From contig NC_012028.1 of assembly GCF_000022205.1 (NCBI RefSeq), positions 124,001 to 188,000 on the forward strand: 64,000 nucleotides of DNA. The letters are read 5' to 3'. The DNA is from Halorubrum lacusprofundi ATCC 49239. GTDB taxonomy: Archaea; Halobacteriota; Halobacteria; Halobacteriales; Haloferacaceae. Under the pieces are notes generated by a model. The model was given only the letters and a program-made list of their open reading frames with translations. It made no database searches and was not told the origin of the DNA. Below, in pieces: positions 37,307-47,477 of the stretch; position 1 is the stretch's first letter, and every line of letters starts with the position of its first letter. Position numbers and translations under genes: made by a program.

Positions 37307-38775
<1,469 letters not shown>

Positions 38776-38934
38776 ACCGACCCGAGACTCGCCCTTCTGG
38801 GCGAGCTCACCTTTCGACCGTCACCAGACGGTCACTATTCATGCATGGTCTGTGTCCGACCACTCGCCGGCCTGGACACCGACGAACTACCACGGTTCAC
38901 ACAGACACCGATCATCCTTCCCACGTGGGAAGGT
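38776..38934 (+). other. 16S-23S spacer, first part
   Basis: Contains the hairpins CTCGCCCTTCTGGGCGAG and GACCGTCACCAGACGGTC, and then the 3' arm of the 16S processing stem (38841-38858). The tRNA-Ala follows. Confidence 0.6.
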
Positions 38935-39006
38935 GGGCTCATAGCTCAGCGGTAGAGTGCCTCCTTTGCAAGGAGGATGCCCTGGGTTCGAATCCCAGTG
39001 AGTCCA
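38935..39006 (+). tRNA. tRNA-Ala (TGC)
   Basis: A 72-nt cloverleaf: acceptor GGGCTCA/TGAGTCC, anticodon stem CCTCC/GGAGG with loop TTTGCAA (anticodon TGC), T arm GGGTTCGAATCCC, discriminator A and no encoded CCA. It sits in the 16S-23S spacer as is standard for haloarchaea. Confidence 0.96.
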
Positions 39007-39283
39007 TGTCAGCCTCGGTCCGAATCCGTCCCCTTAAGTGGAAGACGCGACTCGGATTGAGTAGACGACGACCGATGCACCATCTCGGGAAACCGCGGAT
39101 GGGAAGGGTTCGACGGACACGCTCCTGCCTGGACGTGATCCAATGACGACCGTGTATACGTGCGATCCAGACGTCCACTGAACTCATACGAGTTCGTGGA
39201 ACGTCAGTGAACCATATACAGTCGGGTGACATTTAGTCACTTGACACCGTCAGCGGTTCTTTATTGAATCGACTGACACACTA
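39007..39283 (+). other. 16S-23S spacer, second part, with 23S processing stem arm
   Basis: GACCGTGTATACGTGCGATC (from 39148) pairs almost perfectly with GATCGCACATATACACGGTC after 23S (to 42260). GAACTCATACGA pairs with TCGTATGAGTTC. Together these give the long precursor stem with a bulge-helix-bulge expected for archaeal 23S processing. Confidence 0.65.
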
Positions 39284-42191
<2,908 letters not shown>

Positions 42192-42335
42192 AGTCATACG
42201 GCACTGACACCACAGGTCGTATGAGTTCAGGCGGTAACTGGATCGCACATATACACGGTCGGACGAACCACCGACACAGGCGTCTCTCTCGGCGACAGCG
42301 CAGAGAGAGTCTCGGTTCAACTCCGAGAGTCGGCG

Positions 42336-42458
42336 TAAAGGCGGCCATAGCGGTGGAGAAACACCCGTACCCATTCCGAACACGGAAGTTAAGCCCACCA
42401 GCGTACCGGGAAGTACTGGAGTGAGCGATCCTCTGGGAACCGCGGTTCGCCGCCTACC
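42336..42458 (+). rRNA. rrf: 5S ribosomal RNA
   Basis: About 122 nt from TAAAGGCGGCCATAGCGG to CGCCGCCTACC; the ends pair (GGCGGC/GCCGCC). The conserved CCCATTCCGAACACGGAAGT and AAGCCCACCAGCG loops are present. It lies in the usual place after the 23S processing stem; no tRNA-Cys follows. Confidence 0.95.
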
Positions 42459-42520: not shown

Positions 42521-42669
42521 CTGTATAGAAGTCTCATAGAACGGATCTCATGCCGAATGCACCGGAAAAAGATCGTCGGCTGAGTGCCGAATATCACTTT
42601 CAGGGGCAAGATCTACCTGGAGAAGTTCGCCATATGACGGGTATGCAGACTATTCGATGACACGCTCAA

Positions 42670-43507
42670 CAATTTACTACATCGGTGAGGTCGCTGCCGA
42701 ATCGATGAGTGAATACTCTCGGTCTCGACTCGTGCCCTCCGCCTCGAGGAGGTTGTACTGAGGCATCTTCGAAAGATAGGTGAACAGTCCGCTTCGTCTG
42801 TGGGTCGTCGACCGCCTCAGTATAGCGGTCGTGAATTTTGCTTGGTCCGAGGGGGCCGTGGTCACGAACAATATCGTAGACGACCCGCTGGTGTTGGGTG
42901 AGTGAATCCAGGCTCTTCTGCTTGATTTGGGCCCGAGCATCTTCACGAGCATCTTCAGCGGCGTCTAGGAGGATGTCATTAGTGATCTTCTCGTGATTTT
43001 CGCGGTCAGCCGTGCTGGCTGCGCTGCGAAGCATCCCGATAGCAAGGCGGGCATCGCCAGCGGCGGCATCAGCGATCTAATAGAGCAGGTCGTCGGTGAT
43101 GACGCCGTTCTCAAGCCCTCACTTCGTTCGAGCACTCAGAATGTCGTATAGTTGCTCGTTGTGGTACTTGTCCATCCGGACGTGTAGAGCGCAGGCGGCT
43201 CACGAAACGGTCGTCGACGCGGCTGAACAGCTCCTCTTCTTTGTTCGCGATGAAGATAATTGCAAACTGCGGCAGGCTGTGGAGATCGTAAATGATGCTC
43301 GGGCTTCAACTTTGTCGACCTCATCGAGCATGACGACAGTTCACGGATTCTCGTACTGTTGGTGCCGCTCGATGAGTTCGTCGTGGGGTGCCGACTGGCG
43401 GTGGATGTCGATTGTGGCGCCGATGTCGTTGAGGATCTGGTATTGTGTCCGGACCTGGGTGTAATTCCGCCAGCAGTTGACGTAGGTGGCCTCGACGTCT
43501 CGGAGCG
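42670..43507 (-). pseudogene. Orc1/Cdc6 replication initiator pseudogene
   Basis: Reading the minus strand across frames gives consecutive Cdc6 pieces: NCWRNYTQVRTQYQILNDIG and ATIDIHRQSAPHDELIERH, then VVMLDEVDK (Walker B), sensor-like IIYDLHSLPQFAIIFIANKE, GDARLAIGMLRSAASTADRE, and a winged-helix end (HQRVVYDIVRDHGPLGPSKI). An in-frame TGA before VVML and at least two frameshifts break it. The Walker A end is missing and replaced by unrelated coding sequence. It is the relic of an initiator, hinting that a replicon or its origin was once here. Confidence 0.88.
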
Positions 43508-43766
43508 TGAAGAACGTCCCATAGCCTTTCGCTGTCGCATCGGACACTTCGCCGACAACATACGTTGGAAACCGATCTGCGGCGGATTCCAAGATGGCAG
43601 CGATCTCGTCATTGAGTCGGGCGACAGACCAGGCTGGTTCGTCTATCTCCACGTAGCCAACTGCGGTTTGTCCTCGTGGGTGGTGGCTGAGTTTGTTGTG
43701 GGCGAACGTGGCGTCGGCCCTCGCAATCACGGTCGTGGGGCTACCGATCGAAATCTGGATGCTCAA
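43341..43766 (-). pseudogene. Chimeric frame: exonuclease VII large-subunit-like N-terminus fused to a Cdc6 fragment
   Basis: A 141-codon open frame. Its first ~92 residues (SVARLNDEIAAILESAADRF, PTYVVGEVSDATAKGYGTFF, TLRDVEA) resemble the OB-fold start of haloarchaeal XseA proteins. It then continues in frame into the Cdc6 stretch TYVNCWRNYTQVRTQYQIL and stops at an in-frame TGA. The junction falls in the DVEATYVNC region. Two gene relics were thus joined, probably by deletion. Confidence 0.7.
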
Positions 43767-43880: not shown

Positions 43881-44297
43881 CTATCGGCGATCGGCTGAAC
43901 TGTTGTACATCGTCTCGAAGTCTTCTTCACCGCGGATCAATTCGTCGACACCCTTTGTGAGCGTTACTTCTCCGAACACTGTCGCTCGGTAGTACGTATA
44001 CAAGCCATCTTGGCCCCGCTCGGTCTGCTGGCGTTTTTCGACGAGGCCCACATCAACAAGTTTGTTGAGGTGGTAGTGGAGGGTGCTGTCATCGATCCCG
44101 ATCACTCCCTCTAGTTCTTTAGGACTCATGTCACCGCCGTGGACGAGCCGGTAGAGGATCTCGTATCTGGTCCGATGCCCCACGGCTGCGTGCATTGCAA
44201 GATACTCGTCAAGGCTGAGGACACTCTCTTCCGGCAGTAATTCTTCGGGATCCTCTGGAAATTCTCCTCCGGCTGTCTGTGTGTGGTTCGTCGCCAT
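43881..44297 (-). CDS. ArsR-type winged-helix regulator
   Basis: A 138-residue DNA-binding protein: acidic N-terminus, then LSLDEYLAMHAAVGHRTRYE, ILYRLVHGGDMSPKELEGVI, and the recognition part GIDDSTLHYHLNKLVDVGLV. This is the ArsR/HTH_20-type layout common in haloarchaea. It is divergent from the Rossmann-like gene at 44396. The inverted repeat AGACT-CTT-AGTCT at 44320 is a candidate operator. Confidence 0.85.
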   Translation of the reverse strand: MATNHTQTAGGEFPEDPEELLPEESVLSLDEYLAMHAAVGHRTRYEILYRLVHGGDMSPKELEGVIGIDDSTLHYHLNKLVDVGLVEKRQQTERGQDGLYTYYRATVFGEVTLTKGVDELIRGEEDFETMYNSSADRR

Positions 44298-44319
44298 CTT
44301 ACTCTACGGTAGGATAGAG

Positions 44320-44332
44320 AGACTCTTAGTCT
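44320..44332. promoter_or_regulatory. Operator-like inverted repeat AGACT-CTT-AGTCT
   Basis: A 5+3+5 perfect inverted repeat 23 nt upstream of the ArsR-type start (minus strand), where a TATA region would be. It is likely to be involved in autoregulation. Confidence 0.4.
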
Positions 44333-44362
44333 TTCTCAAGCCGAATTCTCTCAAAAAATGGG

Positions 44363-44382
44363 ACTTTTAAGTACTTTTAGTG
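44363..44382 (+). promoter_or_regulatory. TATA-like box of the gene at 44396
   Basis: ACTTTTAAGTACTTTTAGTG contains TTTTAA centred about 27 nt before the ATG, giving a leaderless transcript. CTTTTAA-GTA-CTTTTAG is a near-direct repeat. Confidence 0.55.
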
Positions 44383-44395
44383 GACATAATCGCTT

Positions 44396-45016
44396 ATGAC
44401 TGTGGAGATTACGCGTGACGTGATTGCCGAACGGTTAGGTCACGTAACGTACGACCGGTTTCTCTTCTACTTGATGGGTCCATACAAATCGTTCAATCTT
44501 AACTACGTTCTCAGCGAGAAAGAGCGCCAGGAAATTGACGTAGAGGACCTCCCAGGGCCGCTCCGGCAATTATTTCAGAGCAAAGAAGAGATCGACGCGG
44601 CGCAGGCACTGCTACGACGGGTACAGGGAGCACTTCGTGTGAAACCCGGAGTAAACGCATTTCTCGCTCTTGACGTTGACGTGGATACTGATAATGTAGA
44701 CGCGGCGACTCAAAGTATTAAATACACGCGGTGTAGTAACGCGACTGCGTTCATCTTACCGTTTCTCGGCCATAATTTCGGCGTCGGAGAAGAAGCTGGG
44801 AGTATTCTGGAGGCACTTTCGGAAACACACAGTGACCGGTTCATCTTCGTTCATGAGAACGATGTTACGAGTGCGATGATACGATCTGCACAGGTGCGAT
44901 GGGACCTCCGGGTGGAAACGTATGCGACCGAGTCAGAACTCATTTCGAAACTTCGGCTGTTCGCTGGTGGCATCATGCATCAAGAGCGCCGGGGAGATCT
45001 CGATCGGTTGGATTGA
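44396..45016 (+). CDS. Haloarchaeal DUF7509-like protein with Rossmann/TIR-like pattern
   Basis: A 206-residue cytoplasmic protein. I recall this as a haloarchaeal family of unknown function (DUF7509). Motifs suggest a TIR/SLOG or nucleoside-deoxyribosyltransferase-like fold: an N-terminal strand with LFYLMGPYKSFNLNYVL, a middle strand FLALDVDVDTDNVDAATQSI, then ATAFILPFLGHNFGVGEEAG, where the glutamates follow a Gly-rich turn, and a final FIFVHENDVTSAMI strand. It is divergent from an ArsR-type gene and followed directly by a truncated HTH gene. A nucleotide-processing role is inference. Confidence 0.7.
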   Translation: MTVEITRDVIAERLGHVTYDRFLFYLMGPYKSFNLNYVLSEKERQEIDVEDLPGPLRQLFQSKEEIDAAQALLRRVQGALRVKPGVNAFLALDVDVDTDNVDAATQSIKYTRCSNATAFILPFLGHNFGVGEEAGSILEALSETHSDRFIFVHENDVTSAMIRSAQVRWDLRVETYATESELISKLRLFAGGIMHQERRGDLDRLD

Positions 45017-45424
45017 TTGGGCACTATTGAAATCCTCATCAGGAGAATATTTCACCCCGGTGTCGATCAGCACCGTGGATTCATTCTGCAATTAAACAAT
45101 ACGGGAATCTCGACTTGCGACCAAAACAAATCGAGAAAGACCGTTCAAGAGCAACTGGAGGTCCTCGTTGAAGCAGAGATTGTTGAATCTACGACTATCC
45201 GCCGAACAGGGACGCGCGGGTTGCCGTGGAAATTCTACGGTTTCACCGAGCGTGGTGCTGACATTCTCGGGAAGTTCAATTACCTCAAGGGTGTTCCGAT
45301 AGCGCGAGCGGCACATCAAAAAACGCGCAAGCCCGAAAAGATCGAGCGGCATGAGACGGCTCCGCGACCACCTCTTCCAGAGCCGGTTCGTGTAACGTTC
45401 CGAATCGACGAAGAAGAAGCGTAA
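45017..45424 (+). pseudogene. Winged-helix regulator lacking its N-terminus
   Basis: An open frame of 135 codons starting at a TTG inside GGCACTATTGAAATCCT (an IS-end relic, from 45020). From about residue 15 it reads as the C-terminal two thirds of a haloarchaeal HTH protein (HRGFILQLNNTGISTCDQNK, LPWKFYGFTERGADILGKFN, KTRKPEKIERHETAPRPPLP). The normal N-terminus is gone, replaced by the relic. A short protein might still be made from it. Confidence 0.65.
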
Positions 45425-46078: not shown

Positions 46079-47477
46079 CAGTACCTCACAAAGCATCCTC
46101 GGCTAGCTGTTTCTGCGGCCTGAGTTCTGTGTCGAAGCGGTTGTACTGACGGTCTCGACGAGAGAATTACGGACGGATCGACGGAGAGCTGTCGCTGTCG
46201 GCGGCGGTCAGCCGCCGACGCGACAGCGTCGCCACTCACTCCGCTGGCTTGCTCGGTCGGTGGTTAGCGGTGGAATCGGTCGTCAGGTGGCCGATTCGCG
46301 GGGACGGCCCGACGCACCGCGAGGGCCGTCCACGCAGCTCGTCGAATCATATTGACGAACTCCTTGTACGGCCACCACCAGAGGCGACGCCCGCCTCGGC
46401 GGGGCGTCGCCACATACTCGTAGTGAAGGTACCGCCAGACGTTCTGTAAGAGGAGACTCACCACCACGTACAGCAGCCGTACCGTTGGATCTCGTGTTGT
46501 CGTTGTCGCTATCGCTTGCTCAAACAAGCGATAGCTTGACTCGATACCGAAGCGTTTCGAGTAGTGGTATCGAGCGTCCCGTGGTGAGTCGATGAACGGC
46601 GCGTCAGCGGCGTAGCCGTGACGCGCCACACCGTTCTCGTCATACTTCCCATTTAGGTACGTACAGTCGATGTAGACGGGAAAATCGACGGTCCAGCTGT
46701 GACCGTCGAGTTTCCCCGTCAGATCATGCTGAATGACGCGACTCCATCCTTCCGAGAGCTCTTGCTGAATCGCCTCACCCCACCGGATGATCGGGATCAC
46801 GTACGCGTAATTGTGCGCCTGAAGCAGCGTGAGACACTTACTGTCGTAGAATCCGCGATCAAGGTAGACGGCCTTGACCCCGGCGTCAAGGCCGTCGAGG
46901 ACACCGAAGAACTCAGCGAGGACACTACTTGCGGTATCGCCGTCTTTGAGACGGCGTACCGCCAGCGTGTAGCGTTTGTTCTTCACACGCGCGTAGAGTG
47001 TGGCATAGGCGTGGAACGCAGTGGTTCCACGCTTCGCTACCGAGTGATAGAGGCCGTCTGTGTCGTCTTCGTCACCGTAGTAGGGCCGCAGGTGGAGGTC
47101 TGCGCAGACCTCCACCTGTTCGGGGAGCAATTCATCGAGATCCTTTCGCAGGAGCGTGTTAGCGACTCGTTCGAGCCGTTCCGGCTCGAACTTCGTCCGA
47201 AGATGGTAGAGGACCGTGTTCCCAGCGGGTGAGTTCTGGCTCGACGCACAGAGCGTAGAGACAGAGGTCCCGTCGGCGCAAGCGCCGACGAGGACCTCAT
47301 AGATGTCTTCAGCAGTGATTTCAGCGTTATTGGCTAACGAGAGCGAAACTTCCTCGTCAAGGCGGTTGACGAGAAAGTTAAGAAGCTGGTCCTCGTGGAT
47401 CTCACCGTCTGCTTGTTTGGTTTTAGACACACCTTCAGCAAGCAGACGTTCTAACTAAGCGGCTTTGTGAAGTACTG
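46079..47477 (-). mobile_element. ISH3-type insertion sequence, copy 3
   Basis: A 1399-bp element with ends CAGTACCTCACAAAGC and GCTTTGTGAAGTACTG. It is flanked by a perfect 5-bp direct repeat AGTAT (46074-46078 and 47478-47482), i.e. a clean, recent insertion. Same length and same protein as copy 2, but in the opposite orientation. Confidence 0.93.
46264..47430 (-). CDS. ISH3-type transposase, copy 3
   Basis: A 388-residue protein with no residue difference seen from copy 2; GTG start. VYLDRGFYDSKC and RFGIESSYR mark the DDE core. Intact. Confidence 0.93.
   Translation of the reverse strand: MSKTKQADGEIHEDQLLNFLVNRLDEEVSLSLANNAEITAEDIYEVLVGACADGTSVSTLCASSQNSPAGNTVLYHLRTKFEPERLERVANTLLRKDLDELLPEQVEVCADLHLRPYYGDEDDTDGLYHSVAKRGTTAFHAYATLYARVKNKRYTLAVRRLKDGDTASSVLAEFFGVLDGLDAGVKAVYLDRGFYDSKCLTLLQAHNYAYVIPIIRWGEAIQQELSEGWSRVIQHDLTGKLDGHSWTVDFPVYIDCTYLNGKYDENGVARHGYAADAPFIDSPRDARYHYSKRFGIESSYRLFEQAIATTTTRDPTVRLLYVVVSLLLQNVWRYLHYEYVATPRRGGRRLWWWPYKEFVNMIRRAAWTALAVRRAVPANRPPDDRFHR

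Follow-up and report, generated by a model that had tools for sequence, protein, structure and literature searches.

The window analysed here, a 64,000-nucleotide stretch of Halorubrum lacusprofundi ATCC 49239 (contig NC_012028.1, positions 124,001–188,000 of the forward strand), carries a divergent gene pair in which an ArsR/SmtB-fold winged-helix regulator is transcribed away from a protein of the DUF7509 family. The DUF7509 protein almost certainly belongs, as a distant member, to the NDT/DNPH1/TIR superfamily, and in sequence it is closer to DNPH1-like nucleotide hydrolases than to TIR domains. By sequence comparison, the pair is a conserved unit, a self-contained two-gene haloarchaeal module inherited together across the class. 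The best reading of these data, which we consider evenly poised, is that the module encodes a locally repressed nucleotide N-glycosidase that would be costly when released.

The regulator gene (43881–44297, minus strand) encodes 138 amino acids, with one wHTH, a C-terminal helix, and 0 Cys, and the DUF7509 gene (44396–45016, plus strand) encodes 206 amino acids. Their start codons are separated by 98 bp (44298–44395), a region that contains TTCTCAAGCC and both promoters. The preliminary description had reported an ArsR-type gene divergent from a DUF7509-like gene, and both are present at the positions claimed. This DUF7509 gene is the single one found in the 3.69-Mb genome, and its named relatives come from Halorubrum and other haloarchaeal genera. 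A complete rRNA operon (16S, tRNA, 23S, and 5S; window 37307–42458) on the 526-kb contig C1 ends 1.4 kb before the pair; its 16S, 23S, and 5S genes span 37307–38776, 39279–42196, and 42337–42458, respectively. On the minus strand at 42666–43766, broken frames resemble, by eye, a frameshifted Orc1/Cdc6 initiator. Directly after the DUF7509 stop codon, a TTG-start ORF (45017–45424) weakly resembles a winged helix (HTH_5, E = 0.078) and may be a truncated regulator; it was not seen to recur after DUF7509 in a comparison of 56 neighborhoods and was excluded from the pair. A transposase-like gene lies farther on, at 46264–47430 (DDE_Tnp_1, E = 0.024, below the cut-off).

The assignment to DUF7509, proposed earlier from the sequence, is confirmed by PF24349 (E = 1.3e-92, 309 bits versus a cut-off of 27). 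We built a structure model from an alignment (A1) of 58 DUF7509 sequences with 23–90% identity to the window protein. The model (pLDDT 82.7, pTM 0.80) consists of an α/β sandwich with five strands and is weaker at res. 31–60 (block means 51–68) and res. 121–130 (63, just before E133). Its conserved motifs are a GPY after strand 1, Q106-S107, G129-V-G-E-E133-A-G135, and S159-A-M-I-R163. The segment GPYKSFNLNYVL (res. 28–39), previously located at the first strand, is indeed next to it but follows the predicted strand (res. 19–27) rather than forming part of it. The GHNFGVGEEAG turn (res. 125–135) sits, as proposed, between a strand (res. 116–121) and the start of a helix (res. 128–148), partly within the weaker stretch at res. 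121–130.

A Foldseek search with the model returns only two matches under E = 0.001, DNPH1 (9ia6, 4.8e-4) and TIR-STING (9lmq, 7.8e-4); MilB and nucleoside deoxyribosyltransferases come next, and small GTPases and flavodoxin-like proteins appear from E = 0.006. In VIA-align, the top match is a TIR-STING chain (Z 13.0, 2.7 Å, 136 residues aligned), ahead of MilB (Z 11.4) and DNPH1 (Z 10.6), and an unrelated flavodoxin-like fold, that of a flavodiiron protein, scores Z 10.8. Because the flavodiiron protein is level with DNPH1 and TIR-STING comes first, the fold by itself does not decide between these relatives. A fold unrelated to nucleotide binding had been named beforehand as grounds for abandoning the proposal; the predicted model, a five-stranded Rossmann-like NDT/DNPH1 fold, and its recognizable sequence profile instead point to a nucleotide-binding fold of the TIR/NDT kind.

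None of the Pfam nucleosidase or TIR models is passed by the 58 members (best PF05014, Nuc_deoxyrib_tr, E = 0.15 for one member), 0/58 match a Pfam TIR model at E up to 1, and PDB sequence searches with the single protein or A1 give only chance-level matches (E ≥ 0.4). Since PF05014 is missed, the relation is visible only by profile–profile comparison. In hhalign, the 58 DUF7509 sequences align to eight archaeal DNPH1-like proteins with a probability of 91, P = 1e-6, and a score of 45.5; 30 column-shuffled decoys score no higher than 17.4, and reversing the profile gives 13.0. These eight sequences were chosen by eye, after the resemblance had been noticed, from 20 fetched weaker PF05014 matches, so a mixed set of 29 NDT/DNPH1-like proteins (P = 2.3e-6, score 42.9) and the decoys serve as fairer controls. 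The only DNPH1-like protein searched against the PDB (L188) matches Rcl/DNPH1 at E = 5e-35. When the family is split, the part nearest the window protein (29/58) scores 39.0 and the far part (23/58) 47.9 against the DNPH1-like set, with six sequences of A1 in neither part; response regulators, a fold control, score 12.6 with each part and 16.2 with the whole. The 30 NDT sequences from other archaeal families taken alone fall below their best decoy (15.2 versus 21.8, P = 0.15). For scale, the DNPH1-like profile itself scores 37.0 against TIR and 52.2 against NDT. On these profile scores, DUF7509 appears to be a separate branch of the NDT/DNPH1/TIR group, nearest to DNPH1 among the families compared. 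DNPH1-like genes that have the catalytic Asp also occur in archaea (L188, L205, and similar ones), L188 in a genome of the same order (G215). The source genome additionally holds an open frame (L187, G000:C3:33385–34275) that, by eye, joins a nucleoside deoxyribosyltransferase domain to the apparent end of a sugar-kinase domain.

The same comparisons bear on a different account, in which DUF7509 is a TIR-like NADase of antiviral or abortive defense: infection would release the repressor and NAD would be destroyed, leaving the virus unsupported. Besides the leading structural match to TIR-STING, a profile of 26 archaeal TIR_2 domains (26 of 30 stretches were usable, four being dropped) gives a score of 22.9 (P = 0.0047, decoys ≤12.6) and places E133 on the conserved TIR Glu, which is the catalytic one. 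The DNPH1-like profiles nonetheless do far better (45.5 versus 22.9), and the near part of the family scores just 16.1 against TIR (P = 0.11). We regard a TIR-like NADase as quite unlikely.

Residues were counted in 86 sequences, after 9 of 95 loci had been left out as truncated, frameshifted, at contig ends, or with the partner separated, shortened, or missing. Nine positions are invariant in 86/86 sequences, namely G28, P29, Y30, Q106, S107, G129, E133, G135, and S159, of which G129, E133, and G135 form the GxxxExG frame of the nucleophile Glu, located where the helix that follows the third long strand pair begins. Tyr occupies position 25 in 79/86 sequences and Phe in 7/86; at position 127, 72 sequences have Asn, 11 have Thr, two have Arg, and one has Asp. 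The profile alignment pairs E133 with DNPH1 E104, S159-A-M-I with S128-A-M-I, N127 with S98, and Q106-S107 with Q79-D80, human DNPH1 numbers having been transferred by counting along printed sequences. The glutamate of GVGEEAG, earlier likened to that of nucleotide-cleaving folds, thus aligns with the DNPH1 nucleophile Glu104, and the general-acid Asp80 corresponds to Ser107 in 86/86. We infer that Y25 is equivalent to DNPH1 Y24 by counting off the common Y-x-x-G motif; the profile alignment begins at residue 59.

Human DNPH1 is described as catalyzing its reaction through Y24, D80, and E104 and holding the phosphate with S98 and S128 of the neighboring subunit (PMC10603095, PMC10483697). DUF7509 has neither the Asp80 nor the Ser98 plus Ser128' pair of DNPH1 proper, while S159, the Ser128 equivalent, is kept in 86/86. 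Because Asp80 is replaced by Ser107 and Ser98 mostly by Asn127, the active site departs from the DNPH1 arrangement and may no longer be catalytic. D80A-DNPH1 has a flat pH-rate profile (PMC12751057) and is still measurably active, so loss of the Asp alone does not exclude catalysis. Judged from these residues, DUF7509 keeps the nucleophile and one phosphate Ser and would have a general acid other than Asp. NDT, DNPH1, and ThsB2, a Thoeris TIR, have a Tyr beside the catalytic Glu, and NADase TIRs usually have Phe or Ala (PMC11204291); Tyr at position 25 in 79/86 sequences therefore goes with deoxynucleotide-specific enzymes or ThsB2 and argues against a TIR-like NADase.

Two further readings depend on these residues. 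DUF7509 might be a DNPH1-like cleaner of the nucleotide pool, induced on demand to clear deoxynucleotides that have been damaged or modified, as may happen through UV or oxidation. The closest profile is DNPH1-like, human DNPH1 sanitizes 5-hydroxymethyl-dUMP (PMC10603095), and the phosphate Ser and Tyr-Glu pair are largely kept under strong purifying selection; the replaced Asp80 and Ser98 equivalents count against this reading, which we hold to be unlikely. Alternatively, DUF7509 could be a nucleotide-binding pseudoenzyme acting as a sensor partner, with the ligand-bound protein titrating or modifying the ArsR-type protein. Replacement of the catalytic Asp by a Ser invariant in 86/86 would suit such a role, but a pure binder has no need of the nucleophile Glu and glycine frame, which are equally invariant (86/86), and we rate the pseudoenzyme as distinctly unlikely.

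The regulator is matched by HTH_20 (E = 2.4e-11) and HTH_5 (30.4 bits versus a cut-off of 22). Its model (pLDDT 86.6) matches ArsR/SmtB structures among other winged-helix proteins, with Foldseek hits to SrnR, NolR, CzrA, and BigR at E = 4.6e-5 to 1.8e-4; the ArsR-type call made from the sequence therefore holds, and the fold is that of winged-helix ArsR proteins. The NCBIfam metalloregulator model misses the protein (40.4 versus 55 bits). Because 86/93 regulators of the family have 0 Cys and lack a cysteine metal site, the protein is not a cysteine-based metal sensor. A search of the genome with the regulator profile yields 17 winged-helix matches, with its own gene at 206 bits and the next best at 48. 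Elsewhere, relatives of the regulator (L242, L244, and L245) are divergent from another common gene of 524–547 amino acids, and the regulator family may control this gene too.

The 98-bp region between the two genes contains a putative TATA-like box for each. That of the regulator (44325–44329, minus strand; CTTAG on the plus strand) is centered 30 bp from the ATG, and its TTAG is kept in most rows of the orthologue alignment. That of the DUF7509 gene, TTTTAAGTA (44365–44373, plus strand), is centered 27 bp before the ATG, a distance that, together with a TTTATATA-like box in most orthologues, fits the leaderless promoter proposed for this gene. Alignment of 56 intergenic regions (the window plus 55 orthologous regions) reveals an operator-like element, TTAGnnnTTnTCAAGCCn11AAAA (44326–44357), and in most rows the consensus reads CTTAG-n3-TTcTCAAGCC-n11-AAAA-about 8 nt-TTTATATA, filling the space between the two TATA-like boxes. 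With up to two mismatches, the pattern occurs once in 3.69 Mb (G000:C1:168326–168357), and its reversed control not at all. Given this single operator-like site and the far lower score of the next profile match, the regulator very probably serves as a dedicated local regulator of the DUF7509 gene. The spacing of the start codons, chosen by script, is 92–104 bp in 42/55 orthologous loci and 93–114 bp in 26/38 distant ones. A sigma-70 promoter scan, with a model inapplicable to archaea, found no excess over chance.

The palindrome that the preliminary description placed in this promoter is weak. In the window it consists of a 6-bp GAATTC and short distant arms, and in 46 non-redundant orthologues the dyad scores 0.437, compared with an all-center mean of 0.260 (2.5 sd), without being the best center. 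A search for a true palindromic operator in the window and the orthologues gave no convincing one; the conserved element, 30–40 bp between the promoters, is not clearly palindromic. Because the dyad is weak, repressor binding is proposed by inference only. The position of the element also suits an activator, with nothing toxic involved: an effector gene without its regulator would merely be silent and decay. The element is placed immediately before the DUF7509 TATA box, a location also used by archaeal activators. Set against this, it abuts the regulator's own promoter as well, and proteins of the ArsR/SmtB fold are typically repressors. Activation seems to us distinctly improbable.

Loss of the pairing had likewise been set beforehand as a possible refutation, and the pairing is conserved. 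The regulator is the divergent neighbor in 55/55 named loci that a search with just the DUF7509 protein retrieved. It is present in 38 of 40 further loci chosen for distant subfamilies, the other two being a broken locus without regulator (L108) and one at a contig end (L123), and both genes are divergent in 93/93 loci that hold both, down to about 25% identity. Purifying selection acts on both genes (dN/dS 0.03–0.12 in 12/15 comparisons, with three saturated). The distances of the effector and regulator proteins co-vary (Mantel r 0.94, with a maximum of 0.36 in 999 permutations; the same 9/95 loci left out), and in 15 pairs from seven multi-copy genomes the nearest relative outside the genome is the same for both proteins in 12 and from the same subfamily in three. 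This exclusive pairing and co-variation would be expected of a pseudoenzyme sensor; joint inheritance alone predicts the same pattern, so the data indicate an absence of partner swapping without demonstrating contact, and the existence of solitary regulators that keep the operator also speaks against a sensor. A wider operon or island was sought in 56 loci with a crude ORF caller, which recovered each gene of the pair itself in 48/56 loci. Third genes recur only in the synteny of Haloferax (10) and Natrinema (5); elsewhere a spurious antisense frame appears in seven loci, and other genes, among them a TnpB-like gene, an ABC ATPase, and Orc1/Cdc6, in at most 6/56.

The two genes differ in how often they occur alone. 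A sample of 170 genomes of the same GTDB family contains 114 near-full-length DUF7509 matches, 110 of them in an unbroken frame. These were classed by hand (profile span ≥187/206 positions); five were joined from two pieces and four have an in-frame stop. A listed regulator lies within 400 bp of 111/114 effectors, and the remaining three have theirs 0.7 kb away, 1.6 kb away, and across the two ends of one contig. Thus, as in a toxin–antitoxin system whose effector is absent without its partner, 0/114 near-full-length effectors stand without a regulator within 1.6 kb, one pair being counted only if contig G068:C1 is circular. Regulators were scored on 24 candidates per genome, and among the 150 listed, 114 accompany these effectors, six are next to effector fragments, and 30 stand alone. 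Of these 30, at least four are themselves partial, and low-scoring listed regulators may belong to other subfamilies, as L242, L244, and L245 with their different divergent gene illustrate; in the window's own subfamily (≥190 bits), 8/43 listed regulators are solitary. No DUF7509 match was found in 20 of the 30 solitary-regulator stretches examined (5–5.5 kb each), and at least four of the other ten are partial regulators. The asymmetry gives a Fisher value of 1.2e-8 (0/114 versus 30/150 listed) and a binomial value of 0.008 (8 to 0), both of which ignore shared ancestry. At five loci (L228, L230, L231, L233, and L234), by eye, the operator and TATA box are kept and the effector is lost at or near its start, with the first effector codons still present in L228.

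That whole effector copies in the sampled genomes always lie near a regulator suggests that the enzyme must be kept under control. The asymmetry would be expected if the effector were harmful without its regulator, although a similar picture would result from silent decay under an activator. Seventeen effector fragments, the remaining copies above the family cut-off with pieces of one copy counted once, include 11 with no regulator beside them among those listed, some at contig ends, which is in line with activation. A harmless cleaner of the nucleotide pool leaves the absence of regulator-less whole copies unexplained. Solitary regulators, for their part, could persist for other reasons.

DUF7509 is found in 101/170 genomes of the family, 213/391 of the class, and 12/196 of the phylum, all 12 in the same order, as well as in 35 plasmid records. 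Its absence from the finds in 178/391 class genomes would be odd for housekeeping repair and argues against the pool cleaner, whereas the same patchy distribution is what a defense NADase might show. The DUF4062 family was recently reported, in a preprint, as a TIR-like NADase defense family (PMC13174449), which also favors that account. The context of DUF7509 gives it less support. PADLOC returns no match for the effector (best E = 0.026), and the regulator's matches to Csa3-type models (E = 2.3e-10) are confined to their winged helix, as expected of any generic protein of that fold. Eight plasmid copies, in which DUF7509 is annotated as a hypothetical protein, have neighbors including orc1/cdc6, ParA, transposases, other regulators, and metabolic genes. 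Single copies lie near a nucleotidyltransferase next to a DNA-binding protein, together with an ArdC-like gene (L213), or near a UPF0175 gene (L214), and two near TnpB; no named defense system is annotated around 8/8. With neither a PADLOC effector match nor a defense-gene neighborhood in these eight plasmid stretches, the pair stands apart from known antiviral defense. Abortive infection would also seem to call for faster control than transcription offers, and the effector shows no sensor domain. Phage records yield no match, and of 46 IMG/VR stretches that fit a search pattern none encodes a DUF7509 relative, so there is no sign of viral carriage. A literature search found papers on related enzymes and none on DUF7509 or the pair.

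We favor a locally repressed N-glycosidase and propose the following mechanism. The regulator would act as a local repressor that binds the element at 44326–44357, at the edges of both promoters, and would thereby regulate its own gene together with that of the effector. The repressor would be released by a signal, which is probably not a cysteine-bound metal since most of these regulators have no cysteine, and the leaderless effector would be made. The effector would bind a 5'-phosphorylated (deoxy)nucleotide or an NAD-like molecule, with S159 contributing to phosphate binding like Ser128 of DNPH1, and would cleave the N-glycosidic bond with E133 as the nucleophile. If the effector is costly when unguarded, intact copies would persist only with the regulator. 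The steps differ in strength: nucleotide binding is probable, N-glycosidase activity could equally be present or absent, and a costly or toxic effector is a tentative proposal that we lean slightly against. Rather unlikely, as a joint claim, is that the pair represents a new haloarchaeal poison or defense module, carried on plasmids and chromosomes through much of the class, in which a DNPH1/TIR-superfamily N-glycosidase with its catalytic Asp changed to Ser is restrained by transcription only, through a divergent ArsR-type repressor. The superfamily placement, four defined residues (E133, S159, S107, and Y25), and one regulator with one operator-like site make the function of DUF7509 directly testable, also in Haloferax volcanii, which carries a copy in its genome. 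A natural DNPH1 relative with the nucleophile but without the general-acid Asp would inform the kinship of TIR NADases and nucleotide hydrolases.

Compared with known systems, DUF7509 shares with DNPH1/Rcl (2'-deoxynucleoside 5'-phosphate N-hydrolase; L188 in archaea) its predicted fold, the G100, G102 (84/86), E104, and S128 positions, and, by motif counting, mostly the Y24 position. It differs in having Ser107 for Asp80, mostly Asn127 for Ser98, a longer stretch from strand 1 to the next long helix, and an ArsR-type regulator as partner. MilB, a CMP N-glycosidase of antibiotic biosynthesis, resembles it in fold (Z 11.4) and nucleophile Glu and has Phe at the DNPH1 Tyr24 position, as do 7/86 DUF7509 sequences; the two have no similarity at the Pfam level. 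TIR NADases (TIR-STING, Thoeris ThsB, and DUF4062/Swarozyc) resemble the DUF7509 model in fold (Z 13.0 with TIR-STING) and Glu position and need no catalytic Asp. DUF7509 is set apart from them by weak profile similarity, a DNPH1-type phosphate Ser, the lack of an added sensor or oligomerization domain, and, in the eight plasmid copies, neighborhoods without a named defense system. The regulator has the winged-helix fold of ArsR/SmtB repressors such as SrnR, NolR, CzrA, and BigR, with HTH_20 and HTH_5 above the cut-off, but its family is mostly Cys-free and it is missed by the metalloregulator model. The RES-Xre toxin–antitoxin system is an operon with a neutralizing antitoxin, in which a DNA-binding regulator is kept with a nucleotide-destroying effector. 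The DUF7509 pair likewise joins a DNA-binding regulator to an effector, here predicted to destroy nucleotides, but its genes are divergent, and its arrangement suggests control by transcription alone.
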